Source of the DNA: Hydrogenophaga sp.
GTDB lineage: Bacteria; Pseudomonadota; Gammaproteobacteria; Burkholderiales; Burkholderiaceae_C
Direction of reading: 5' to 3'
Assembly (NCBI RefSeq): GCF_022844385.1
Contig: NZ_JALHLX010000006.1
Span: 3,113-67,112 of the forward strand
DNA length: 64,000 nt
In this document: one piece after another, positions 38,648-52,530 of the stretch
Numbering within the stretch: the first letter of the stretch is position 1
How the letters are laid out: each line of letters begins with the position of its first letter
Position numbers and translations under genes: made by a program
The notes under the pieces: model-generated
What the model was told of the DNA's origin: nothing
The model's input: the letters and a program-made list of their open reading frames with translations, nothing else
Databases searched by the model: none

Positions 38648-40240
38648 ATGCTCGACACCAACCTCAAGACGCAACTGCAGGCTTACCTCGGCAAGCTGCA
38701 GCGCCCGATCCGTTTGATTGCTTCGCTCGACGCCAGCGCAGGCGCGGCCGAGATGAAAGAACTGCTGCTGGAAGTGGCCGAGCTCTCCGATCTGGTGAGC
38801 TTCGACGAGACCGGCACCGATGCGCGCAAGCCATCGTTCGTGATCGCCCGCGAAGGTGAAACCACCGGCGTGCGCTTCGCAGCAATTCCGCTGGGCCATG
38901 AGTTCACCTCGCTGGTGCTGGCGCTGTTGTGGACGGGTGGCCATCCGCCCAAGGTCGAAGCGGCCGTGATCGAGCAGATCAAGGGTCTGGAAGGCGACTT
39001 CAACTTCGAGATGTACATGAGCCTCTCGTGCCACAACTGCCCCGACGTGGTGCAGGCGCTCACGCTGATGTCCATCCTCAACCCCGCCGTGAAGGCCACG
39101 GTGATCGACGGCGGTTTGTACCAGGCCGAAGTGGAAGAGCGCCAGATCCTGGCCGTGCCGATGGTGTTTCTGAACGGTGAGCTGTTCGGCTCGGGCCGCA
39201 TGCTGCTCGAAGAGATCGTCGCCAAGCTGGATGTGAAGTCCGACGAGCGCGAAGCCGCCAAGCTCAATGCCAAGGACCCCTACGACGTGTTGATCGTCGG
39301 TGGTGGCCCGGCCGGCGCTGCGGCTGCGGTGTACGCCGCCCGCAAGGGCATCCGCGTGGGCGTGGCCGCCGAGCGTTTCGGTGGCCAGACCAACGACACC
39401 ATGGCGATCGAGAACTACATCAGTGTGCTGGAGACCGACGGGCCGAAGTTCGCCGCTTCGCTTGAAGCGCAGGTGCGCCATTACGACGTGGACATCATGA
39501 ACCTGCAGCGCGCCAGCAAGATCATCCCGGCCACAGAAACTGGTGGCATGGTGAAGGTGGAAATGGCAAACGGTGCGGTGCTGGAAGCGCGCAGCGTGAT
39601 CCTGTGCACCGGCGCGCGTTGGCGCAATGTGAACGTGCCCGGAGAAGAAGAGTTCAAGAACAAGGGCGTGGCCTATTGCCCGCATTGCGACGGCCCGCTC
39701 TTCAAGGGCAAGGACGTGGCGGTGATCGGTGGTGGCAACTCCGGCGTGGAAGCCGCGATTGACCTGGCCGGCATCGTGAAACACGTGACGCTGGTCGAAT
39801 TTGCCGACGCGCTGAAGGCCGACGCGGTGCTGGTGAGCAAGCTCAAAAGCCTGCCCAACGTGACCATCAACGTGAACGCGCAGACCACCGAGATCACGGG
39901 TGCCGGCGGCAAGGTCAACGGCATGTCGTTCAAGGACCGCGTCAGCGGCGAGGTGAAACACGTGGCTCTGGAAGGCGTTTTCGTGCAGATCGGCCTCGTG
40001 CCCAACACCGAGTGGCTCAAGGGCACCGTGGACCTGAGCCGCTACGGCGAGATCGAGATCGACGCCAAGGGCCACACCAACGTGCCCGGCGTGTTTGCCG
40101 CCGGCGACTGCACAACGGTGCCGTACAAGCAGATCGTCATTGCTGCGGGTGACGGCTCCAAGGCCGCGCTCAGTGCCTTTGACTACCTGATCCGCCAGCC
40201 GGTGGTGGCCGCCAAGGTCGAAGAAGCGGTCGCCGCCTGA
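38648..40240 (+). CDS. ahpF: Alkyl hydroperoxide reductase subunit F
   Basis: 530 residues. The N-terminal tandem thioredoxin-fold domain has the CHNC pair Cys128/Cys131. The C-terminal thioredoxin-reductase-like part has FAD binding [17 protein letters not shown], the redox pair Cys344/Cys347 (YCPHCDG), NADH binding [14 protein letters not shown] and VFAAGDCTT. It passes electrons from NADH to AhpC. AGGAG precedes the ATG. Ends just before the terminator at 40257. Confidence 0.98.
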
Positions 40241-40309: not shown

Positions 40310-41335
40310 TCAGGCCTTGCGGACCTTCACCGTGTAGTTGCCCAGCCCCGTGGCCCGGTTGTAGTGGCGCACCTGAACGTAGTAGCGACCCGGGATGAGG
40401 CTGGCTCGGATCAGGGCGTTGGTGTCCACACCGCTGTCGTCGTCTTCGGCGATCACGGCGGTGGGGCTGTCGGGGCCGAAGAGTTTCATCACCACGTCGG
40501 TCGGGCCGCGCGTGTCGATGATGTGGGGACCGCCGGTGGTCACGGTGAACTGGAACAGGTCTTCTTCACCCGCCTTGCCGATGGCGGCTGCGGTGCGTCG
40601 GCTGGCGCCGATCTTGATTTCTTTCGCATCCACCAGCGTGGGCGCCGCTTTGGGGTAGGCCTTGGCGCCTCCGATGAAGGCCTTGTCCAGCGACGAGAGC
40701 ACCGGGTTCGCGCGCGTGCCCACGCCACTCTGCACCCAGCTGCCCGGAAAAAAATACAGCATCACGGAGTCGGGGTCGAAGGTGGTGCCGTTGATCTGGT
40801 CGGCGCGGTATTTGTTGAGCACGTTGTGGCGGATGGTCGCCTCGCTCCAGTTGTTGGGCGGGCCCGAGAGGTCGCGGATCACGGCAGCCTCGTTCCACTC
40901 AATGCCGCCGGCCGGGTTCTGGTGTTCGTGCATGAGGCCGATGGCGTGGCCGAACTCGTGCGCCACCGTGCCGCCGTCCATGAAGCCGAGGTTCATGGTG
41001 GGCTGGTCCAGCGGAATACTGCGGTTGTCGGTGCCCACGTAGGACCATGCGCCCTTGGCCGGATCGAAGCTGATGCGGATTTCGGCATCGGGCGCGTTGT
41101 TGAATTCGAACTTGAGGTTGGCGTGTGCCGTCCACCACTGCGCCTGCTCACGCACCTTGGCTTGTTGCGCCGCCGTGCCGCCAATGAAGCGCACGCGCAG
41201 CGTGCTGCCGTTCATCCACATCTTGCCCAGCGGCATGATGGCGCGCGTGCGTCCGCGGCTGCGCACGGTGGGTTGAAACTGCATGAGCTCGGCAGGCAGC
41301 AGGCGTTGGGTGCACACGTGAACAAGTTTTGTCAT
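40310..41335 (-). CDS. Astacin-type zinc metalloprotease with PPC-like tail
   Basis: 341 residues from the ATG at 41333-41335, with GAGGAG upstream. The catalytic motif is complete: HEFGH (126-130), then H136 in the HExxHxxGxxHE pattern of astacins/M12 proteases, with a downstream region where a Met-turn could lie (SVMLYFFPG). A C-terminal PPC-like beta domain covers about 250-341 (DLFQFTVTTGGPHIIDTRG, GRYYVQVRHYN). I see no signal peptide, so it may act in the cytoplasm. It is the last gene of the five-gene leftward unit, 25 bases after the TIR gene. Confidence 0.8.
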   Translation of the reverse strand: MTKLVHVCTQRLLPAELMQFQPTVRSRGRTRAIMPLGKMWMNGSTLRVRFIGGTAAQQAKVREQAQWWTAHANLKFEFNNAPDAEIRISFDPAKGAWSYVGTDNRSIPLDQPTMNLGFMDGGTVAHEFGHAIGLMHEHQNPAGGIEWNEAAVIRDLSGPPNNWSEATIRHNVLNKYRADQINGTTFDPDSVMLYFFPGSWVQSGVGTRANPVLSSLDKAFIGGAKAYPKAAPTLVDAKEIKIGASRRTAAAIGKAGEEDLFQFTVTTGGPHIIDTRGPTDVVMKLFGPDSPTAVIAEDDDSGVDTNALIRASLIPGRYYVQVRHYNRATGLGNYTVKVRKA

Positions 41336-41360
41336 GGTGGTCTCCTCGGGGTTTTGTGGA

Positions 41361-42419
41361 TCAGGGACTGCGCACCAGCCGCAGTGGGCTCTCAGCCTGC
41401 TCGCCGTTGCTCCAGAGCTGGCCGGTGAGTTCGCGTCCGTCGGCGCTGGCGTTGAGCACGACGCTGCCGGTGTCCAGTGGCCCACGGCCGTCGCCGGTGA
41501 CGGCCTGGTACGGAATCTCGATGCGCGGCACGCCCATCACATCGGTGAGCACCCCCTGGCCAACGTAGCGCACCTCGTTGACGGTGAGGCCTTGCCCACG
41601 AACGCCTTGCGCGTAAGCCTGCCATTCCGGATACCAGGACACCGGAAAAGCATCGGTCTGCAGCTGGATGGCACCGTTGTTCACGGTGAACTGCACCCGC
41701 AAGCGCCGGTTGTCTTCGTCGATGGACCACCAGATGCCCGACACATCCAGGGCGGACTGGCCCGATCGCGGCACGGGCTCGGGTGTCGCTGCCACGTAAG
41801 GGGGCGGGGAGGGCGGGACTTCCTCCTCATCGTCGGGCGCGAGCAGGCCGATCACCACCAGTCCCACAAAGATGCCCCCGATCCACATGAAGCCGCGCTG
41901 CATGCGCTGCACCCAACTGCGTTTTTCGGGCCGTACCGGGTCGCGCGACACCAACGGGTGGATGCCGTGGGTGGCGAGGTCGGCCACGATCTTGTCGAGA
42001 TCGTCGGCCCAGTCTTCGGTGCGCAGCTTGAGCGCGTGTGACTCCTTCAGAAAGCGCAGCGGCGGCGGAATGTCGGCCGTGGCCGGCATCACCATGCCCT
42101 CGGTCAGCAAGGGCACGATGGTGGCGCCGTTGGCCTGCGCCGTGAGCGCCTCGCCGCGGATGGGGTCGTCGTCCCGGTCGATGCGCCGTCCGCCTTCGGG
42201 ATGCGCCATGCCCAGCAGCTCGGGCGTCACCAGCAGCAGCACCACCGGTTGTGTGCCCAGCGCCGCCATGATGGCGCTGCGCCACGAGTGCCCGCCGCGC
42301 AGGTCCTGCTTGTCGAAGAACACCTGGTCAGCGCCGTAGAGGCGGCTGAGGTCGGCGCACAGGCGGTCGGCGTCCTTCTTGCCGTCGGACGACCGGTAGC
42401 TGATGAAGATGCGGTTCAT
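41361..42419 (-). CDS. TIR-domain protein with one transmembrane helix and a beta-rich tail
   Basis: 352 residues. The TIR domain (1-150) has FISYRSSDG at the start, QVFFDKQDLRGGHSWRSAI, LLLVTPELLG and the candidate NADase glutamate Glu90 in PIRGEALTAQ, then VPLLTEGMVMP. A transmembrane helix covers about 177-194 (FMWIGGIFVGLVVIGLL), followed by an acidic/proline linker (195-215). A beta-rich domain of about 130 residues (DVSGIWWSIDEDN onward) follows; I cannot assign it. Bacterial TIR domains often cleave NAD+ in phage defence. The ATG overlaps the CHAT gene stop by 4 bases. Confidence 0.82.
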   Translation of the reverse strand: MNRIFISYRSSDGKKDADRLCADLSRLYGADQVFFDKQDLRGGHSWRSAIMAALGTQPVVLLLVTPELLGMAHPEGGRRIDRDDDPIRGEALTAQANGATIVPLLTEGMVMPATADIPPPLRFLKESHALKLRTEDWADDLDKIVADLATHGIHPLVSRDPVRPEKRSWVQRMQRGFMWIGGIFVGLVVIGLLAPDDEEEVPPSPPPYVAATPEPVPRSGQSALDVSGIWWSIDEDNRRLRVQFTVNNGAIQLQTDAFPVSWYPEWQAYAQGVRGQGLTVNEVRYVGQGVLTDVMGVPRIEIPYQAVTGDGRGPLDTGSVVLNASADGRELTGQLWSNGEQAESPLRLVRSP

Positions 42420-45400
42420 GGGGCGGCGTAGCCGTTCAGGATGCCGAGCAACTCGCCGGCGGCCTGCCGGTCGGCCTGCGTCATGCCGTGCAGATGCTCC
42501 ACCACAAAACAGAGCTGGTCGGCCACCGAGGCCCACATCCACGGGGTACCGGCGCGCTGGTGCATGTCGTCGAAGCTGGACAGGATGGCCGGCAACCGTT
42601 GCGCCAAGGCATGGCTGGCCAGTGCCTCGTACACGCTGAGTTCGGGCAGCCCCACCACGCTCCAGAAATCGGGGTCTTCGCGCCGTTGCCGCTCCAGGCT
42701 CTGGCGCACCCGCTGAAGCCGGTCATGCTCGAAGCCGGCCCATGGCCGATCACTGGCGCGCGCCAGCAAGTCAGCCGCCACGAGGTTCAGGGCTGGATAG
42801 AACAGATCGGACTGCCCGGTCTGAAGCGCCAGGGCCTCGGCTTGCCGGTAGTGCGCCGCCATGTGTTCAATGGCTGCTGTGCTGGCCGGGGTGGCCTGGC
42901 CCGCAGCGGCAATGCCTTCGAGCCGCGCCATGCGTTTCCAGGTCGAACCGAGCAGGCTTTCGCGCTCCACGGTGGGTGACAAGGCCAGCAGTGCTTCCAG
43001 GATCCGCACTGCCTGGGTGATCTCTGAGCGTCCCTGCTCCACCAGAGCCTGTACGCGGGCTGGCTTGGCGCCTTCACGCACGGCGTTTTGCAGCCGCGAC
43101 CAGGCCTGACGAGCGCCCAGGTTGGCCAACTGTTCGTTGGCTTTCACCGACGCGCTGCCGTCGTTGGCCGCCGCGGCGCGCCGGTACCAGTGCAGCGCAC
43201 GGTCGATGTCGCGCGCGGCAGCCCAGGCCACGCCGTAGGCCTCGGCCACTGCGCCCATGCCGCCCCAGTCCCCTTCGAAACGGGCTTCAAGGTAGCGGAT
43301 CTTCTCCCGCTGCGACTCGGGCGCGGCACCTTGCGTGGCGCTTTGTACGGCGAGCGTTTCCAGTGCCAGAGCCAGCGCCACTGGCGACGCAATGCCCGCG
43401 TACGTCTTGGCCAGCGTGGGCGGTGCACGGCGGTTGTCGATCTCGTTGCGTTCCCAGACCCAGTCCGGATCGCCATAGCACTGGTAGGCGGCCCAGGTGT
43501 TGCCTCGCGGGTTGGCGTTGTAGGCCGCCAGGCGTCCCGCCTGCACCGCATCCATGAAGCGCTGACCGGAGAGCAGCGAGCGGTAGAACGCGGTGGCGAA
43601 CAGGTTGGCCGGCTCGTCTTCCACCGCCCAGCCCGCCGCCACCACACAACGCACGCCGATGCGGATCAGCTGCTTGGCCACGCCGGCGGCGAATTGCGCG
43701 CGGTCGTAGCCGCTTTTGAGCAGCTTTTCCGGGTCGGCCGCGAGGTGGCAACAGTTGAGGAACACCAGCTCGGGCACGACGCGCATGGCCTGCACCTCGC
43801 GCGGACCCAGAAAGGTGTCGTCGCTCAGCACCACGCCGCGCAGCAGGGGCGACTTGCCGGGGCGTTGCAGTTCGGGTTCGCCGTGGCCGGCGATGTGCAC
43901 GATGCGGTAGCGCCGCGCCAGCAGCGCGGTGGTCACGGCGGCCGCGTCCGGGCCCAGGTTGTCGTCGGGCGCAATCAGCGAGTGCACCCGCGACGCATCG
44001 AGCCCGAGTTGCCCGCTGAGTGCTTCGACCACCGCCTCGGCCTCGGAGCGCGCGGCAGGCAAGGGCGGGTAATGCACCGGGTCGCACAGCGGCTCGCCAA
44101 TCACCAGCACGCAGTCATCGGGCCGGGCGTCGCTCACCTGGCTGCGAAAGGCCGCGGTGCGCAGGCGGCGCAGCAGTTTGTTGCGGATGGCCCAGGGCGC
44201 ATCCGGTCCACCGCGACCATCATCGGGCGCGTCCAGCAGCTCCCAGGGAATGGCGGCGGTACCGTCGTCGAGTTCGAGCAGCAGCTCGCTGGTGCCGCCC
44301 AGGCTGGCCTCCATTTCCACCGGCACCAGCAACTGAAAGAGGGTGCGGCCGATGGTGGGGTCGCGGTTGGCGTCGTTGGAGGCGCGGCGCACCAGTTCAC
44401 CCACCAGCCGGGCCTGCGTGGCCTGGGCCCGCACTTCGGCGCGGGCGCGCTGGGTGTCCAGCGTGTAGACGATGCTGGGGTCGCCACTGTCGTCGGTTTC
44501 GGTCACAGCGCTGATGAAGTCGTAGGCGGTGCCGCGGTAGCCGTTGTCCAGCGGCCGGCGCAGCGCGCCCACGCCAGAGAGGATCCTGGGGCTGAGCGCG
44601 AAATGGTCGGGCGCGGCAGCGCACAGCAGTGTCAGGGCGCTCCAGGCGTCGGTGGCCCGATCCAGGTAGAGCTCCACGATGTGCAGGTGGCTCACCTGTG
44701 GCCAGCCACCTGCGGCGAGCCTTTCGTTGGCCTCGCGCACACCTTGTGCCAGTGCCTGTGCCGAGGTGTTCACGCTGATGCCGGTGCCGCCGCTGCCCAC
44801 GAGCGTGGCGGCCAGCTCGAAATGGGAGGGACCGCCTCCCGGTGCTTCAGCCACCCGCTGCGCCCAGGCCAGGGTCGCCTGCCGAACGGTCTGGGTGATC
44901 GAAGTGCTCTTGAGTTTGCCCTCCGAACCCAGCCCGACCACCACCACATGGGGTGGCCGCGGCAGGGCGAGCGGGCTGTCCGGGTCCTGCCGGTTGTTGA
45001 TGAAGATCTGGTGGGTGCCGGGCGACTCCGGGTAGAGGCCAGCGGCCAGCGAGGCCGACATGGCCCCTCCGATGAAGCGGTCCACCACCGCCTCGGTGCC
45101 GCTCAATGTCGAGGCGAAGTAGTGGCCAACCATCAATGGCTTGCTGATGAACTTGAGGTTGGCGTTGTGCACGCTGATGTGCAGCGCGCCCTGCGGTGCC
45201 TCGGAGACGGTGGAGGGCTCTGCGGCGGGTGCCAGCAGCTCGCCCAGGCCGTTGGGTGGCACCACCACTGCGCTGCGCTGGCGAGACGGCCGGTTGCGCA
45301 CCAGTGCCATGGCCGCCGCACCGCCGCTGCGCACGCCGGGCCCGGCGCCCACCCGAGGCAGGCTCTGCGTGTCACCGTGTTGCAGCAGTTCCAGGTAGGC

Positions 45401-48025
45401 CGGGAACGCGGCCTGGGCGTCGGGCAGGTCGCCGTGCGGGCAGTCCACCCGCCAGGCACGCACGCCCGGCAGCAGCGCATTGTCCTGCGTCACGCGACCG
45501 TCGCCGCCTTCGGGCTGATCCAGGTAGATCAGGCCCTCGCGGGCGTCCATTTCAAAGCCTGCCGGTGTGAAGCGGGCCTGACCGAGCACCATCACCACCC
45601 GATCGCGGAACCCCGGCAATGCGGTCTCGCGTTGCTGGTCGAGGCGGCGCCGCAGATCCACGGCGCGGTCGAGCACGTCTTGCGCCGGCACACCCCAGCG
45701 GTAGATGGCGCGCTGGCTGCCGGGGTCGTGCCAGAAGTTGGCATCTTCCAGCGTCTTCATGTCCTGTTCGGCCAGCGCCTGCCAGCGTTCGCTCTGGGCA
45801 AGCCCCAGTGCCGGGTCGAGCAGGCCGGCCTGCAATTGCAGGAAGCCCGGCATGGCCGCCATCAGGCGGCGCGCCTTGTGGTCTTGAAACGGCAGGCCGA
45901 AGGCGGCCAGCGCGTTGCCCATGGTGTCGTCGCCCGAGAGCACCTGCATCGGGGCGAACGATCCGCCGTTGGGTGTGCCCAGCATGAGCAGGCGCGAGCC
46001 GGGTCGCTCCAGCCAGCGGCGCCACACCTCGGGCCGCTCCAGTTGCACGGTGCGCGCGACCACCCCACCCATGGAGTGGGCGAGCAGACGCACCGGCTGA
46101 CCGCTGCCCGCACGGGCGGTGAGGGCCTGGTCCATCACCTCGGCCAGCCGGGCCGCTTCTTCCTCGATGGGGCGCCGCCAGTCAAACGAAAACTCGATTA
46201 CTTCATGGGTGGCCGTGAGGAAGGCGACCAGGTCGTCATACACGCTGCCGATGGCGCCGTCGGGCGTCACGCGTCCGCCCGCATCGGGATAGGCCAATCG
46301 ACCCAGGCCACCCAGGATGCGCGCGCTCAACCAGATGCGCTTGCCATCGACGGCGAGGTGACTGCCCAGGATGCCGGGCAGCAGGATCACGGCCGGGCGT
46401 TCAGAGGCGGGCGGCGCGCTGGCCGATCGGGGCATGCCGCGCAGCCCGTCGCTCGAACTGCCGGCCCACGACATCGGCCCGATCGGCCTGAAACCCGCAG
46501 GCGAGTCCTGCACCAGAGCGTTGCAGATCGCCTCGGCCGAGCGTGGCTCGCTGAAGTAGCTGAAGTGCGTGACCTTGCCACCCCGTTCCAGAACGAACGT
46601 GGCCGCCGCGTGGCCACCGGCTGGAGAGCGCGGTGTGCCGCCGTACATCGAGCGCGTCTGCACCACCAGGTCGTTGTCGGTCCAGTAGAAGGCGTCGGCC
46701 AGCAGCGTCTTGACCCAGGAGGTGATGGAGTCGCCCTGGATGTCGCCCGCCACCACGCGCAGTTGCCCCGGCAGCGGCGTGCCGCCTGCGCCTTCACTGG
46801 CATGCAGCCACTGCACCAGAGGGCTCTCGGGCATCATGCATTCGAGGCCGGGCAGCAGGGCTGGATCGGTGCGCTGGCTGGCCACTTCACCAATGAAATC
46901 GATCAGCGTGGGGGCCACCGGGATCGCTGCCAGTTCCAGCGACCACTTGAGCACCGACACGTAGGCGTCAAGCCGCTTGGAGGCCAGCAGCGTGCCGCGC
47001 GCCGGGCAGGCCACCCGCACCACGCGATCCACACGGATGTTGCGGCCCTTGAGCTCGGCGGCGAGTTCGCGCAGCGCCTTGAGCTGGTTGCGGTGGGCGG
47101 GCACCTTGAACGGCGCGAGCGACTTGTCGTCCAGTTCGGGCCTGGCACACACACGGGCCAGCACTTCGGCCACCAGACCACCGCGCGAATGGGTGAGCAG
47201 GTGCAGACGCGCGCCATCGGGCAGCGACCTTGCGAGCATGAGCGCGTTGTCGATCGGGCTGGCCATGAGCGTGGGGTGCTCGAAGCCGTAGACCCGCTCG
47301 CCGTGGCGCGTGAACAGCTCGCGCACCTTTTGAGGGTGGTGCTGCCACAGCTTCCCGAAGGTGCCGTGGGTGTTGGAGAAGGTGCCGTGCAGCAGCACCA
47401 GGATGGGCTCGTCGGGATGGGTGGCGGGTGGGATCTTCGTGATTGGCTTGGCGTTGCCCTTGAGCGTGGTGGCAAAGCTGTGCGCCGAGAGGGCATACAG
47501 ACCGGCGTCCACCTGGTCGTCCACCCGCGCGGCGATCTTGGCGGCGGTGATGCGCGAGGCCGGTTCCAGCAACAGGCCGGTGACCACCTCGATGGCCGAG
47601 AGCAGCACATCGCCCAGCCGCCCGCGCGTGGCCCCGCGCGAAGCGCCAGCCTGCTCCAGCCCCTGCCAGCCCAACTGCGCGGGCACCTGCACTTCGGTGG
47701 CGCCGCGGTTGCGTGGTTGGACCGGCATGCCGCTGCGCGTGAGGCCGGACTGCGCCAGCATCAGGTCACGTGCGGTCTCGGGGTGCAGCATGAGCGAGGG
47801 GCCGTTGCTGATGTGCAGCACCACCGCGTCCAGCCCGGGCCTTGCGGTCATGCGCACGGCATCGCTGCTGCCCCGGGTAGCACCCACCTGCACGCGCTGC
47901 ACGGTTTGGCCGCGTCCGCCGAAGCCCGCCGCTGCGCCTGAACCGGCGCCACGTGTGGCAGTCGTTCCCGCCTGCGGTTGACCGCGAACGATGAAGGTGA
48001 TCGGTGCGGTGGAAGCGGTGGTCAT
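42416..48025 (-). CDS. Giant protein: two alpha/beta-hydrolase modules, CHAT protease, helical tail
   Basis: 1869 residues from the ATG at 48023-48025 (AAGG upstream). Module 1 (about 205-450): LVLLHGTFSNTHGTFGKLW and nucleophile LLTHSRGG (Ser280). Module 2 (about 545-830): LLPGILGSHL and nucleophile LLAHSMGG (Ser651), like lecithin-acyltransferase/lipase-type hydrolases. Residues 940-1260 are unassigned. A CHAT protease domain (about 1290-1525) has HIAGHGE (His1381) and VFLNCCHLA (Cys1426 at the LSAC position). A helical, TPR-like tail runs from about 1560 to the end. CHAT is a caspase-related protease of bacterial conflict systems. No signal peptide. Third gene of the operon; the order is protease, amidase, this, TIR, metalloprotease. 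Confidence 0.85.
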   Translation of the reverse strand: MTTASTAPITFIVRGQPQAGTTATRGAGSGAAAGFGGRGQTVQRVQVGATRGSSDAVRMTARPGLDAVVLHISNGPSLMLHPETARDLMLAQSGLTRSGMPVQPRNRGATEVQVPAQLGWQGLEQAGASRGATRGRLGDVLLSAIEVVTGLLLEPASRITAAKIAARVDDQVDAGLYALSAHSFATTLKGNAKPITKIPPATHPDEPILVLLHGTFSNTHGTFGKLWQHHPQKVRELFTRHGERVYGFEHPTLMASPIDNALMLARSLPDGARLHLLTHSRGGLVAEVLARVCARPELDDKSLAPFKVPAHRNQLKALRELAAELKGRNIRVDRVVRVACPARGTLLASKRLDAYVSVLKWSLELAAIPVAPTLIDFIGEVASQRTDPALLPGLECMMPESPLVQWLHASEGAGGTPLPGQLRVVAGDIQGDSITSWVKTLLADAFYWTDNDLVVQTRSMYGGTPRSPAGGHAAATFVLERGGKVTHFSYFSEPRSAEAICNALVQDSPAGFRPIGPMSWAGSSSDGLRGMPRSASAPPASERPAVILLPGILGSHLAVDGKRIWLSARILGGLGRLAYPDAGGRVTPDGAIGSVYDDLVAFLTATHEVIEFSFDWRRPIEEEAARLAEVMDQALTARAGSGQPVRLLAHSMGGVVARTVQLERPEVWRRWLERPGSRLLMLGTPNGGSFAPMQVLSGDDTMGNALAAFGLPFQDHKARRLMAAMPGFLQLQAGLLDPALGLAQSERWQALAEQDMKTLEDANFWHDPGSQRAIYRWGVPAQDVLDRAVDLRRRLDQQRETALPGFRDRVVMVLGQARFTPAGFEMDAREGLIYLDQPEGGDGRVTQDNALLPGVRAWRVDCPHGDLPDAQAAFPAYLELLQHGDTQSLPRVGAGPGVRSGGAAAMALVRNRPSRQRSAVVVPPNGLGELLAPAAEPSTVSEAPQGALHISVHNANLKFISKPLMVGHYFASTLSGTEAVVDRFIGGAMSASLAAGLYPESPGTHQIFINNRQDPDSPLALPRPPHVVVVGLGSEGKLKSTSITQTVRQATLAWAQRVAEAPGGGPSHFELAATLVGSGGTGISVNTSAQALAQGVREANERLAAGGWPQVSHLHIVELYLDRATDAWSALTLLCAAAPDHFALSPRILSGVGALRRPLDNGYRGTAYDFISAVTETDDSGDPSIVYTLDTQRARAEVRAQATQARLVGELVRRASNDANRDPTIGRTLFQLLVPVEMEASLGGTSELLLELDDGTAAIPWELLDAPDDGRGGPDAPWAIRNKLLRRLRTAAFRSQVSDARPDDCVLVIGEPLCDPVHYPPLPAARSEAEAVVEALSGQLGLDASRVHSLIAPDDNLGPDAAAVTTALLARRYRIVHIAGHGEPELQRPGKSPLLRGVVLSDDTFLGPREVQAMRVVPELVFLNCCHLAADPEKLLKSGYDRAQFAAGVAKQLIRIGVRCVVAAGWAVEDEPANLFATAFYRSLLSGQRFMDAVQAGRLAAYNANPRGNTWAAYQCYGDPDWVWERNEIDNRRAPPTLAKTYAGIASPVALALALETLAVQSATQGAAPESQREKIRYLEARFEGDWGGMGAVAEAYGVAWAAARDIDRALHWYRRAAAANDGSASVKANEQLANLGARQAWSRLQNAVREGAKPARVQALVEQGRSEITQAVRILEALLALSPTVERESLLGSTWKRMARLEGIAAAGQATPASTAAIEHMAAHYRQAEALALQTGQSDLFYPALNLVAADLLARASDRPWAGFEHDRLQRVRQSLERQRREDPDFWSVVGLPELSVYEALASHALAQRLPAILSSFDDMHQRAGTPWMWASVADQLCFVVEHLHGMTQADRQAAGELLGILNGYAAP

Positions 48026-48058
48026 GTGGGCCTTTCTGCGGCGGCGGTGCAACTGGGT

Positions 48059-49000
48059 TCAGCGCACGGTGCGGGGGGTGCGTTTCTTGGCGGGTGCGGC
48101 GGGTTTCCTGGGTGCGGGCGTTGCTCGTGCCTGGGCAACGGGCACCGCGCGCTGCGAGCGCGAGAGCACGGTGGGGCCAGACCGTGTGGCCGCCTGGCGC
48201 GTCACGAAGTCGTTGCACACCCAGCCTTCCAGATCGGTGGCGCCCACCACCGCCACGCGGCTCCAGCGGTCTTGGGGTTCCAGCAGCACCAGCTCGGCAC
48301 CGCGCTTGAGCGCGGGTGCGACCTTGGGAAACTCGGCGGCCGGGCCGCTGCGGATGTTCAGGCTGGTGGCCGTGACCACCAGGCGCACCGCCACATCGGC
48401 ACCCCGGCCCAGTGCACGTGCGCGCACGGCGGCCAGTGGAAAGGCCGGGCCCGGGTCCACCTTGCGCCCGCGCGCGATGTCTTCATGACCCAGCACATCC
48501 TGCAGGCCATAGTGCGCCACCAGCACCTCACACAGTTGCAGCGCACGCTCGATCTGCACCTCGGTGAAGTGGTGCCATGGCCGCACACCGCCACCGTGCC
48601 GGTGTTCCGCCACCACCACCTCGTTGTCGGGGTAGACCTTGCCGAACCACGCTACACAGCGCTCGCCCTCGCGGTGCAACAGGCCGGCGTTGTCCATCTC
48701 GATGCCGATGGCGTGGTGGTTCAATCCGTCAATCCCGTTCCACTGGCTCACACCGGCGTGCCAGGTCACGGCGTTGAACGGCGCGAGCTGAACGATGCGC
48801 CCGTCGCGTCCCAGAACGATGTGCGCCGACGCGTTGCCCTGGGGCTTCTTCGTGCACAGTGACTCCACCGAACTCTCCAGTGTTCGCCCGGCGGTGTAGT
48901 GCAGCACCACGTAGCGCGGTCGCAGGGCGCCGCCCACGTTGGGCGTGGCACGAAAGCTCACGTCGGGGCCGGTGAGCCGGTGGTTCTGGATGGCGAGCAT
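48059..49000 (-). CDS. N-acetylmuramoyl-L-alanine amidase (amidase_2) with SH3 domain
   Basis: 313 residues from the ATG at 48998-49000, with GGGAGG upstream. An amidase_2/AmpD-type domain (about 1-190) carries zinc ligands His34 (VVLHYTAG) and His172 and Asp182 (GHEDIARGRKVDPG), plus the TWHAG and NHHAIGIEMDN motifs. A bacterial SH3 domain covers about 205-268 (SLNIRSGPAAEFPKVAPAL), followed by a basic Ala/Pro tail. It cuts the bond between MurNAc and the peptide stem. No signal peptide, unlike most cell-wall amidases, so it may act on recycled or released fragments, or after cell damage. Second gene of the operon. Confidence 0.88.
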   Translation of the reverse strand: MLAIQNHRLTGPDVSFRATPNVGGALRPRYVVLHYTAGRTLESSVESLCTKKPQGNASAHIVLGRDGRIVQLAPFNAVTWHAGVSQWNGIDGLNHHAIGIEMDNAGLLHREGERCVAWFGKVYPDNEVVVAEHRHGGGVRPWHHFTEVQIERALQLCEVLVAHYGLQDVLGHEDIARGRKVDPGPAFPLAAVRARALGRGADVAVRLVVTATSLNIRSGPAAEFPKVAPALKRGAELVLLEPQDRWSRVAVVGATDLEGWVCNDFVTRQAATRSGPTVLSRSQRAVPVAQARATPAPRKPAAPAKKRTPRTVR

Positions 49001-49057
49001 GTGAATGCCTCCCTGGGTTGCCGATGCAAACAAGGCGCCAGCCGGGGCGCCCACCGG

Positions 49058-49963
49058 TCAGACGCTGAAGGGCGCCTGTTTGAGGAACGGCGCTGCCGGG
49101 CCGAGCGTGAAGAGGTTGGGCGACTGGCTGGGTGGCAGGCCCGCGCGGATGTGCGCATGCAGGCTGGCGTAGCTGCCCTTGAATGCGCCGTTGTTCCACA
49201 CGCGCAGCAGTTGTTCGGTGAAGGCACCGTTGTGGTCGCCGTCCATGGAGAACTGGTTGTCCTGGCAGCCCGAGATGAGGATGAGCGAGGGATGGAACGC
49301 CTTGACGATGCCGGTGAGGCGGGTGCTCACGGTCAGTTTGGCCAGCGCGGTGTCGGGGTCGGTCACACGCCCGCCGGCATGCCTGGCGACTTCGTTCTGC
49401 AGCTGGTCGTAGAAGGACTTGTGCGCTGCATAGACGCGCATGCCCACGGCCGGCGGCATGATGCGCGGGCGCTGGGCGGGTGTGCCGGGTGGCGGGCGCG
49501 CGGCGCGCACCACAGTGCCGCTGTGGCAGCTGTCCGAGACCACGAAGAGGCGCACGCCGCTCTTGAATTTGCTGAGCTCGTAGTAGAGCTCGTCGTCGAT
49601 CAGCTGGCCATCGAACAGGCACCAGGTTTCGTCCTGCTTGTCGTCTTCATCGCCACTCACGTCGGGCACCTGGCCACCGTGCCCGGAAAAACTCATGAAG
49701 AAGTAGTCGCCTGCAACGAGGGTCTTGGCGGCCTTGCGCAATGCCGCCAGCAGGTTGGCGCGGGTGGCTTTTTTCGTGATCAGCAGCGTGCTCTTCATGC
49801 CCCGGGACTGGGCCAGTGCCGCCATGTCGTGCGCGTCGAATTCACAAGCCGCCAGAGGGCCGGTCCAGCCCTCGTAGTGGGCGGCGCTCACCTCGTTGAT
49901 GCCGATGTGCAGCGACAGACCTTGCGGCTTTTTTGCCTGGGTGGCAGATGCTTTGCTGGCCAT
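49058..49963 (-). CDS. Caspase/metacaspase-like cysteine protease
   Basis: 301 residues from the ATG at 49961-49963, with GGGGAG six bases upstream. Peptidase C14 features are the start [15 protein letters not shown], catalytic His95 in FSGHGGQ, and catalytic Cys146 in VSDSCHSG. A p10-like region has [22 protein letters not shown]. It has no signal peptide, membrane segment or obvious sensor domain. It is the first gene of the leftward unit. Prokaryotic caspase-like proteases occur with gasdermins, CHAT and other conflict modules; their targets are usually neighbours, so the CHAT or TIR protein here is a possible substrate. Confidence 0.88.
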
Positions 49964-50398: not shown

Positions 50399-50659
50399 AT
50401 GAACAGCGACAGCAACGCAAAGGCCTATTGGTCCGCCACGCTGGGCCTGCTGACCAAGGTATTGGTCGTGTGGTTCCTGGTTTCCTACGGCGCGGGCATC
50501 TTGTTCGCCCCCCTGCTCAACAACATCTCGCTCGGTGGCTATCCCCTGGGCTTCTGGTTTGCACAGCAAGGCTCCATCTACGTGTTCATTGCATTGATCT
50601 TCTATTACGCCCACAAGATGGGCCAGATCGATCGCAAGTTCGGCATGCAGGAAGACTGA
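50399..50659 (+). CDS. DUF485-family membrane protein, partner of the symporter
   Basis: 86 residues from ATG 50399, with AGGAG nine bases upstream (the ATG at 50390 is in frame). Two transmembrane segments lie at about 18-40 and 55-77 with the family pattern LGGYPLGFWFAQQGSIYVFI and YYAHKMGQIDRKFG. DUF485 proteins (YjcH) are encoded directly before acetate-permease-type sodium symporters, as here, 17 bases ahead. Confidence 0.93.
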   Translation: MNSDSNAKAYWSATLGLLTKVLVVWFLVSYGAGILFAPLLNNISLGGYPLGFWFAQQGSIYVFIALIFYYAHKMGQIDRKFGMQED

Positions 50660-50676
50660 GCACACAAGAGAACACC

Positions 50677-52530
50677 ATGGAACTTCAAACCACCATTTAT
50701 CTGTTCGTCGGGCTCAGCTTCGCGCTGTACCTCGGCATCGCCTACTGGGCACGCGCAGGCAGCACGTCCGAGTTCTACGTGGCCGGCGGCGGGGTTCACC
50801 CGATCACCAACGGCATGGCCACGGCCGCCGACTGGATGTCGGCCGCGTCCTTCATCTCCATGGCCGGCCTGATCTCCAACATGGGCTATGGCGGCTCCGT
50901 GTTCCTGATGGGCTGGACCGGCGGCTTCGTGCTGCTGGCCATGCTGTTGGCGCCGTACCTGCGCAAGTTCGGCAAGTTCACCGTGCCTGAATTCATTGGC
51001 GACCGCTTCTACTCCCCCACCGCGCGCAACGTGGCGGTGTTGTGCCTGCTGATCATTTCGCTGACCTACATCATTGGCCAGATGACCGGCGTGGGCGTGA
51101 CCTTCGCGCGTTTCCTGGGTGTTTCCAGCGCTCAGGGCATCTACATCGGCATGGCCATCGTGTTCATGTATGCGGTGTTCGGCGGCATGAAGGGCATCAC
51201 CTACACGCAGGTCGCCCAGTACATCGTGCTGATCGCGGCCTACCTGGTGCCGGCCTTCTTCATCTCGCTCAACCTCACCGGCAACTTCTTGCCGCAGTTG
51301 GGTCTGGGTTCGGACATGTCCGGCACCGACGTGTCGCTGCTGACCAAGCTCGACCAGGTGGTGACCGATCTGGGCTTTGGCCAGTACACCACCACCAGCG
51401 CGGGCTCCACGCTCAACATGTTCTTCTACACCGTGTCGCTGATGATCGGTACCGCGGGCCTGCCCCACGTGATCGTTCGCTTCTTCACCGTGCCGAAGGT
51501 TGCCGATGCACGCTCCACCGCTGGCTGGGCGCTGATTTTCATCGCGCTGCTGTACACCACGGCACCTGCTGTGGGCGCCATGGCCAAGCTGAACCTGCAC
51601 GGCACCGTCAACTCGGCGGTGGGCCTGGTCAACAGCGCTGAAGGTGGTATTGGCGTGAATGCCGATGCGGTCAAGGCCAACGCAGACCTGTACGCCACCG
51701 AGTCCAGCCTGCAGTATGAGCAGCGTCCCGAGTGGATGAAGCGCTGGGAAAAGACCGGCCTGTTGAAGTGGGAAGACAAGAACGCGGACGGCCGCATCCA
51801 GTACTACAACGACGCCACCAAGAACGAAGTCGCCAAGGGCAAGGCCCAGGCCGCTGGCTGGAAGGGCAACGAGCTGACCGTGAACGCCGACATCATCGTG
51901 CTGGCCAACCCGGAAATCGCGCTGCTGCCCAACTGGGTGATCGCACTGGTGGCTGCGGGTGGTCTGGCCGCTGCGCTGTCCACCGCTGCCGGTCTGTTGC
52001 TGGCCATCTCGTCGGCCGTGTCGCACGACCTGATCAAGGGCGCCATCAAGCCCGACATCAGCGAAAAGGGTGAGCTCATGGCCGGCAAGATTGCCATGGC
52101 CGTGGCGATCTTCGTGGCGGGCTGGCTGGGCCTTAATCCACCGGGCTTTGCGGCCGGCACTGTGGCCCTGGCCTTCGGTATCGCGGCATCCACCATCTTC
52201 CCCGCGTTGATGATGGGCATTTTCAGCCGTACCGTGACCGACAAGGGCGCCATTGCCGGCATGCTGGCCGGTCTGGCTGTGGTGCTGTTCTATGTGTTCG
52301 CACACAAGGGCATCTTCTTCATCAAGGGCACGGACTTCGTGCACATGGTCGGTGGCGTGAACGGCTTCTTCACCATCACCCCCGAGGCCTTCGGTACCGT
52401 GGGCGCGATCGTGAACTTCGTCGTCGCCTACCTGGTGAGCAAGGTCTCCACGCCGGTGCCCAAGCACATTGTGGAACTGGTGGAGTCGGTTCGCGTGCCC
52501 AAGGGCGCGGGCACAGCCACCGGACATTGA
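50677..52530 (+). CDS. actP: Sodium:solute symporter, acetate/monocarboxylate permease type
   Basis: 617 residues. Thirteen or so transmembrane helices of the SSS family with EFYVAGGGVHPITNGMATAADWMSAASF near the start and the SSS motif region GLAAALSTAAGLLLAISSAVSHDL later. A hydrophilic insert of about 110 residues (about 320-420, with KRWEKTGLLKWEDKNADG) is typical of the VC2705/MctC-like subgroup. It likely carries acetate or another short carboxylate; ActP versus a close relative cannot be decided here. Followed by a GC hairpin terminator at 52583. Confidence 0.88.
   Translation: MELQTTIYLFVGLSFALYLGIAYWARAGSTSEFYVAGGGVHPITNGMATAADWMSAASFISMAGLISNMGYGGSVFLMGWTGGFVLLAMLLAPYLRKFGKFTVPEFIGDRFYSPTARNVAVLCLLIISLTYIIGQMTGVGVTFARFLGVSSAQGIYIGMAIVFMYAVFGGMKGITYTQVAQYIVLIAAYLVPAFFISLNLTGNFLPQLGLGSDMSGTDVSLLTKLDQVVTDLGFGQYTTTSAGSTLNMFFYTVSLMIGTAGLPHVIVRFFTVPKVADARSTAGWALIFIALLYTTAPAVGAMAKLNLHGTVNSAVGLVNSAEGGIGVNADAVKANADLYATESSLQYEQRPEWMKRWEKTGLLKWEDKNADGRIQYYNDATKNEVAKGKAQAAGWKGNELTVNADIIVLANPEIALLPNWVIALVAAGGLAAALSTAAGLLLAISSAVSHDLIKGAIKPDISEKGELMAGKIAMAVAIFVAGWLGLNPPGFAAGTVALAFGIAASTIFPALMMGIFSRTVTDKGAIAGMLAGLAVVLFYVFAHKGIFFIKGTDFVHMVGGVNGFFTITPEAFGTVGAIVNFVVAYLVSKVSTPVPKHIVELVESVRVPKGAGTATGH

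Follow-up and report, generated by a model that had tools for sequence, protein, structure and literature searches.

The stretch of DNA analysed here (the window) comprises 64,000 nucleotides of contig NZ_JALHLX010000006.1 of Hydrogenophaga sp., a genome of 3.9 Mb in 237 contigs, and carries a run of five minus-strand genes encoding a caspase-family protease (CASP), an amidase (AMI), a giant CHAT protein, a TIR-domain protein (TIR) and a metalloprotease (MP) (Table 1). All five open reading frames were found as described in a first-pass annotation, leftward and with successive gaps of 57, 33, -4 and 25 bases. That annotation had taken them for one undescribed conflict system; an operon of cell-death-type enzymes is indeed present, but its five genes do not make up a single fixed system. 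The GC content of 65–70% over the operon lies within the 60–70% range across the window, in agreement with the host-like base composition reported earlier. The dN/dS values calculated for the window against the related loci L044, L001, L003 and L004 ranged from 0.08 to 0.47 for every one of the five genes and, judging from these ratios, each of them evolves under purifying selection and none looks decayed. A search for a sigma-70-like promoter between CASP and yjcH found none. The operon is real and functional-looking but modular.

Table 1. Operon genes, regions of the giant CHAT protein and flanking genes, in window coordinates
Feature	Position	Strand	Description
CASP	49058..49963	-	301 aa; caspase-family (C14) protease; Pfam Peptidase_C14 9.1e-23
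AMI	48059..49000	-	313 aa; AmpD-like/lysin-like N-acetylmuramoyl-L-alanine amidase; Pfam Amidase_2 1.7e-28
Giant CHAT protein	42416..48025	-	1869 aa; hydrolase 1, hydrolase 2, macro fold, CHAT, TPR-S
Hydrolase 1 region	46406..47548	-	residues 160-540, approximate boundaries; DUF7379 3.2e-30; HSRGG nucleophile S280
Hydrolase 2 region	45266..46405	-	residues 541-920, approximate boundaries; LCAT-like; HSMGG nucleophile S651
Macro fold	44621..45208	-	residues ~940-1135; predicted; no Pfam call in giant CHAT protein
CHAT protease domain	43469..44353	-	residues 1225-1519; H1381, C1425/C1426; Pfam CHAT 5.7e-33
TPR-S domain	42776..43210	-	residues 1606-1750; Pfam TPR-S 1.4e-8, 35.7 bits vs cut-off 27.6
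TIR	41361..42419	-	352 aa; Pfam TIR_2 4.8e-11
MP	40310..41335	-	341 aa; astacin-type metalloprotease + PPC; Pfam Astacin 1e-9, PPC 2e-7
AhpF-like flanking gene	38648..40240	+	left border of insertion site; gene call and site comparison
YjcH/ActP-like flanking genes	50399..52530	+	right border of insertion site; gene call and site comparison

The giant protein has the order hydrolase–hydrolase–macro fold–CHAT–TPR-S, the macro part being predicted from a structural model. Pfam confirmed the five enzyme assignments of the first-pass annotation, which contained neither the TPR-S domain nor the macro fold. The S280, S651, H1381 and C1425/C1426 residues were conserved in at least 97% of 46 full-length giant CHAT sequences, a set restricted to CHAT proteins longer than 1650 aa. 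Hydrolase 2 was matched by Pfam LCAT (5.8e-8) and by LCAT chains (6e-5), and no literature match was found for the DUF7379 family of hydrolase 1. The TPR-S domain is the sole PF20308 match in the host genome.

The stretch between hydrolase 2 and CHAT, folded alone with AlphaFold from 42 sequences, gave a model with a pLDDT of 80.1 and a pTM of 0.71. Foldseek placed its macro region with macro domains and also with M17 aminopeptidase N-domains (108 chains with E of at most 0.001; best 3.3e-6), and the comparison (VIA) gave Z 18.0 with an rmsd of 2.6 over 167 residues for the M17 enzyme 7y1s and Z 16.8 with an rmsd of 2.7 over 169 residues for macroH2A. A sequence profile of the region searched against PDB sequences retrieved nothing convincing (best 0.29), and Pfam M17_N matched the equivalent position in a distant Rhizobium relative at 0.0037, below the cut-off. 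The S1078-G1079-G1080 loop was invariant in 42 sequences and, compared by order of sequence rather than by superposition, suggests a counterpart of the ADP-ribose (ADPR) loop of ThsA (S217, G218, T220) given in PMC11204291. In L172, the minimal natural form, the CASP gene overlaps by 4 bases with the next gene, whose 711-aa macro-CHAT-TPR-S product lacks the hydrolases; the macro and TPR-S parts of this product were detected by our own profiles only, and Pfam called just CHAT.

The TIR protein was modelled (pLDDT 72.7, pTM 0.43) as a TIR domain (~1-155), a low-confidence stretch with a probable single transmembrane (TM) helix (~174-197) and a well-predicted C-terminal beta-barrel (~222-351). 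The TIR domain model matched the TIRs of SARM1 and TIR-1 with Z ~16. E90 is conserved in 9/9 sequences and aligns with the Glu of a SARM1 stretch; the protein has the presumed catalytic Glu expected of a Thoeris TIR. From the distribution of charges, the TIR domain would be cytoplasmic and the barrel periplasmic, a topology that would suit a putative envelope sensor. The barrel resembled that of Cap15 of CBASS (7n34; Z 12.3, rmsd 2.5 over 100), which also lies beside a membrane segment. A designed barrel reached Z 11.7, and the barrel was not taken for a cyclic-dinucleotide receptor because this designed barrel fits nearly equally well. In contrast to Cap15, the window barrel is attached to a TIR domain, and no CD-NTase/nucleotide cyclase family was detected by Pfam in the five proteins.

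Both the C14 domain and the His/Cys dyad are present in CASP, placing it in caspase family C14; its closest solved relative is GSU0716 (5.6e-88), with metacaspases next. AMI matched AmpDh2 (8.5e-19) and, with a likeness to phage lysins, PHROG amidase/endolysin families (3.2e-34), and showed a weak SH3_3 match (9.2e-5) below the Pfam cut-off. The nearest relative of MP was myroilysin (2.7e-38). Catalytic residues had been reported for all five proteins, and this was borne out, with conservation of at least 95% for H95/C146 of CASP (34 sequences), H34/H172/D182 of AMI (16 sequences), the TIR residue and HExxHxxGxxH of MP (5 sequences), besides the giant CHAT residues given above. The catalytic roles given to all these motifs are presumed ones, following the usual assignments in the families. 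The top NCBIfam match of MP was the beta-glucuronidase AbsR1 model (2.4e-46, 158 bits, below its cut-off of 650), a name that may mislead annotators of this HExxHxxGxxH protein.

The gene content was compared in 64 loci (L numbers) gathered by homology to the giant CHAT protein, with genes called by a codon-usage finder of our own. As no CHAT gene was called in L024 or L054, these two are not included in the giant-protein residue conservation, the gene-run survey and the CHAT tree. Several loci end at contig edges, so the counts are lower bounds: CASP was present in at least 34 loci, AMI in at least 15, the window-type (P0004-like) TIR in at least 8 and MP in at least 4. The complete set was confined to the window and L001, L003, L004 and L044, all from Hydrogenophaga. 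Across 299 genomes of the family, CASP was found in 34, the macro/CHAT region in 43, the P0004-like TIR in 25, MP in 18 and AMI in 6; with kinship and genome size ignored, 27 genomes had both CHAT and CASP, 19 CHAT and TIR, 8 CHAT and MP and 4 CHAT and AMI. CASP and CHAT were absent from nine regions around relatives of AMI (L138-L141) and of MP (L150, L151, L168, L170, L171). The outcome named earlier as refuting a single system, genes that do not travel together in related genomes, was thus partly observed: it applies to the five as a set and not to caspase and CHAT. These counts and the lone AMI and MP relatives indicate a CASP–CHAT core to which AMI and MP look like local additions; judged by gene content, the recurrent unit is the caspase–CHAT pair and the remaining three seem to be interchangeable extras. 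The adjacency of CASP changed at least 10 times on a tree of 56 CHAT proteins. A fixed five-gene system was rejected on the content of the 64 loci and the nine AMI/MP-relative regions.

CHAT was present in 20 of 67 Hydrogenophaga genomes (18 of 44 good ones). In loci of this genus reaching the flanks, the CHAT operon has, with some rearrangement, ahpF on one side and the actP/yjcH or ppsR genes on the other; the names ahpF, actP, yjcH, ppsR, ppsA and rlpA are those we take the sequences to represent. All 26 good CHAT-less Hydrogenophaga genomes matched ahpF, two only partially or weakly, and in 19 of 20 CHAT-less congener regions compared the stretch from ahpF to ppsR contained none of the five genes (L137 differs). 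The operon is thus patchily present at one site that is empty in CHAT-less relatives. In L002, the nearest CHAT on the tree, CASP-AMI-CHAT occurs without TIR or MP and the sequence runs from the CHAT end into ahpF. Because the Hydrogenophaga carriers have a common site and host-like composition, a very recent island was not favoured. A phage-borne operon was rejected: none of 50,697 phage records matched CHAT, and 13 distant plasmid records did, every one at less than 60% identity. In the Rubrivivax-type loci L014, L016, L019, L022, L025, L034 and L058, a gene presumed to encode an RlpA-like lipoprotein lies directly upstream of CHAT, which marks a second recurrent chromosomal site.

The TIR neighbour of CHAT is variable. 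A P0004-like TIR occurs in the CHAT gene run of the window, L001, L003, L004, L007, L008, L011, L044 and L049, TIR-TPR proteins in that of L012 and L035 (L059 has a gene of the same family truncated by the contig end) and a TIR-receiver gene in that of L051. A DUF4062-TPR gene takes the TIR position next to CHAT (L033) or next to the caspase-CHAT pair (L149), and deoxyribosyltransferase-like plus TPR-S proteins are found in the runs of L039, L031 and L149. Between the CASP and CHAT genes of L164 (G198) lie those for a Cap17-like/deoxyribosyltransferase-like protein, a TIR, an AAA ATPase and a 1248-aa protein that no Pfam model matched. The MoxR, SLOG and deoxyribosyltransferase-like labels used for L164, L039, L031 and L149 stand for weak Pfam matches or motifs presumed by eye. 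On a Rhizobium plasmid, an M17_N-CHAT-TPR-S gene sits between two TIR-nSTAND1-WD40 genes. The TIR-superfamily adjacency to CHAT changed at least 12 times on the 56-protein tree.

A generic TIR model, built from five proteins (L001, L012, L035, L051 and the window), detected 13 of 107 non-core genes within CHAT runs and 0 of 554 outside (4 of 79 versus 0 of 383 without Hydrogenophaga), an enrichment that is partly circular, since the model was trained on loci of the same set. The analysis was therefore rerun with Pfam TIR_2 over whole genomes, and the figures from this rerun given here and below refer to the matches listed. In 43 CHAT genomes (223 Mb), 152 TIR_2 matches were found, of which 5 lay within 10 kb of CHAT versus 0.57 expected. 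Without the window's genus, 3 were observed versus 0.53 expected (P 0.017), one of these three being on the strand opposite to CHAT. TIR-superfamily genes hence stand beside CHAT above expectation, though less strongly so once the genus of the window is set aside.

The operon was compared with known systems. According to PMC11204291, the macro domain of the TM-macro ThsA of Thoeris binds ADPR and IAD. As in that system, a TIR gene is paired here with an effector that has a predicted macro fold; Thoeris receptor domains are of SLOG or macro type, and the fold predicted here fits M17 N-domains equally well. In contrast to Thoeris, the effector in the window is no membrane protein but a protease-lipase of 1869 aa with TPR-S, and its TIR neighbour is optional: the rule that the TIR always adjoins the effector fails, with a P0004-like TIR in at least 8 of 64 loci and, among the matches listed, TIR_2 within 10 kb of CHAT in 5 of 43 CHAT genomes. 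Thoeris models matched the window TIR weakly (NCBIfam ThcB4 26.3 bits against a cut-off of 220; PADLOC ThsB 0.0039). By the tests made, the operon is not a Thoeris member; its mode of action may be that of a NAD+-signal system of the Thoeris or TPR-S type. A caspase-type Thoeris, uniting a TIR and a caspase-like protease in one system, was reportedly presented by Rousset et al. (Science) in 2025. It differs from the window, where the CHAT giant stands between TIR and caspase, and a TIR-caspase arrangement without an adjacent CHAT was seen only in L162 (L162:7239-10065). There a TIR-TPR gene adjoins a CASP-family caspase, which is reminiscent of a two-gene TIR-caspase system.

TPR-S is said to have been defined by Burroughs and Aravind in 2020 (J Bacteriol), with TIR and deoxyribohydrolase-type partners and a predicted role in reading NAD+-derived signals. 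The window giant shares with these conflict systems a TPR-S above the curated cut-off and differs in its hydrolase-hydrolase-macro-CHAT-TPR-S chain. The TIR with the conserved Glu would be the signal-making partner in the window, and such a partner is not found in every CHAT genome. Part of the giant-CHAT architecture may already have been drawn in that 2020 work, which PMC8195603 cites. No paper in the literature search had two of the TPR-S/CHAT domain terms together, and no description of the five-gene set was found, in keeping with the first-pass annotation, in literature that mostly did not include subscription papers.

Other relatives share parts of the set. PMC7159879 reports caspases paired with alpha/beta-hydrolases in MoxR-vWA ternary systems, so such pairing is already known; these differ from the window operon, whose five proteins contained no MoxR, vWA or VMAP by Pfam. 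The AAA ATPase of L164 showed a weak bpMoxR match, and the locus may represent a hybrid with MoxR systems. Csx29/TPR-CHAT of Craspase (PMC9729208, PMC10028731) likewise combines a CHAT protease with TPR, whereas the window protein adds two hydrolase regions and a macro fold. No Cas7-11/gRAMP or other CRISPR gene was noticed in the locus gene tables, on which no dedicated search was run. The DUF4062 family (Swarozyc) is described in PMC13174449 as TIR-like NADases. Its likeness to the present loci lies in the DUF4062-TPR genes replacing TIR, and the difference in their coupling to CHAT and in the true TIR carried by the window.

The reading that we tentatively prefer, with slightly less than even confidence, is that of a modular operon for conflict or regulated cell death, whose giant protein would read an ADP-ribose-type signal with its macro/TPR-S part and so release protease and lipase activity. 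It builds on the domains, the residue conservation, the CASP-CHAT pair, the exchange of partners and the site empty in relatives. Also in its favour are the TIR_2 excess near CHAT, the Rhizobium gene lying between two TIR genes, the ADPR binding reported for the ThsA macro domain and the plasmid relative next to restriction-modification genes. Upon infection or envelope stress, the membrane TIR would cleave NAD+ to an ADP-ribose-type product, whose binding by the macro and TPR-S parts would release the CHAT protease. CHAT and caspase might then act on one another or on shared targets, and the hydrolase regions would attack membrane lipids. In Hydrogenophaga, the lysin-like AMI and the astacin-type MP may be extra killing tools, acting in lysis once the membrane fails, so that the whole would have a putative defence or suicide role. 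Where no TIR lies nearby, the signal could come from a TIR or another NAD+-cleaving enzyme elsewhere in the genome, or from another source. A bolder version is doubtful: a TIR-signalled suicide system of a new class, with one giant protein as receptor and executioner (a cryptic macro fold and TPR-S would sense an ADP-ribose-type signal and set free the CHAT protease and two lipases of their own chain, with a caspase as partner) and an exchangeable upstream NAD+-cleaving enzyme (TIR, DUF4062 or deoxyribosyltransferase-like), perhaps encoded elsewhere in the genome, the membrane TIR of Hydrogenophaga with its periplasmic barrel coupling the system to envelope damage. If the conflict-operon reading is true, TIR-to-macro signalling would reach beyond membrane effectors to an executioner that combines protease and lipase. 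The reading makes of an odd gene list a model open to testing, with a recurrent protease pair, a predicted macro fold uncalled by Pfam in the giant protein and interchangeable, putatively NAD+-cleaving partners. Should the signalling step be wrong, it still points to a large CHAT family of fixed architecture, whose minimal natural form, L172, lends itself to structural study.

Several results weigh against the conflict-operon reading. The macro fold may be of the M17 N-domain type, since such domains scored as well as true macro domains and the fold alone gives no basis for choosing between the two. The weaker TIR_2 effect without the window's genus makes the signalling step less certain. Only a minority of loci have a TIR-type gene adjoining CHAT, and no model TIR was found within four genes in 22 further loci chosen for having no adjacent caspase. 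No TIR_2 match was listed for 11 of the 43 CHAT genomes, 8 of them among the 39 good ones; these 11 include G087, the genome with the minimal pair of caspase and macro-CHAT protein. The chromosomal flanks showed no enrichment of known defence genes (141 flanking genes, 18 of 37 listed loci), and so the location in a defence island raised earlier was not confirmed there; one plasmid relative does adjoin restriction-modification genes. The flanks were scanned after removal of TIR-model and core-model genes, with DUF4062 and TPR-S partners kept and with no random-gene control set, and at 1e-15 at most 9 proteins matched three PADLOC families (mad3 7, PDC-S08 1, subtilase 1). The plasmid relative, L173 of Azotobacter chroococcum (31% identity), adjoins type I restriction-modification, Fic, recombinase and transposase genes.

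The genomes lacking TIR_2, the many loci with CHAT but neither caspase nor TIR neighbours and flanks resembling ordinary genes would fit an explanation that is rather unlikely, namely that CHAT, with or without caspase, is a stand-alone protease-lipase stress module sensing an internal metabolite or damaged protein, and that the TIR neighbours are independent accessories with no NAD+-derived signal involved. It accounts poorly for TIR-superfamily genes of varied architectures near CHAT above expectation and for the retention of TPR-S and the macro fold. The recurrent caspase-CHAT pairing, the overlapping caspase and CHAT genes of L172 without hydrolases and the caspase–hydrolase pairs reported for MoxR-vWA systems could also reflect a death-receptor-type proteolytic relay without a nucleotide signal, in which TIR/TPR scaffolds unite caspase and CHAT and the caspase matures the hydrolases, amidase or metalloprotease. 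Such a relay seems quite unlikely, as E90 of the TIR would be needless in a mere scaffold and the DUF4062 partners belong to the reported family of TIR-like NADases. Either explanation may nevertheless hold in place of the conflict-operon reading. A weapon for contact or predation, with amidase, metalloprotease and lipase parts exported or released against neighbouring cells, is suggested by the likeness of AMI to phage lysins and of MP to myroilysin and is highly improbable, given that inspection by eye, with no predictor run, showed no signal peptide, that the operon has no secretion or immunity gene and that AMI and MP are its least frequent members.

Further genes were observed around the core in single loci or small groups. 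In L001 (L001:17695-20348), the operon extends to seven genes, the additional ones being another TIR-TM gene and an overlapping gene for a 642-aa protein that Pfam does not match. In two Thauera genomes (L028, L046), CHAT comes after a chemosensory-type gene set with a 1863-1875-aa hybrid protein, CheA-like as judged by eye. A multi-membrane family without a significant Pfam match (c29) recurs upstream of CASP (L044:6168-7913, L051:1836, L061, L063 and L142), and by eye its C-terminal part is reminiscent of a TIR or a deoxyribosyltransferase.

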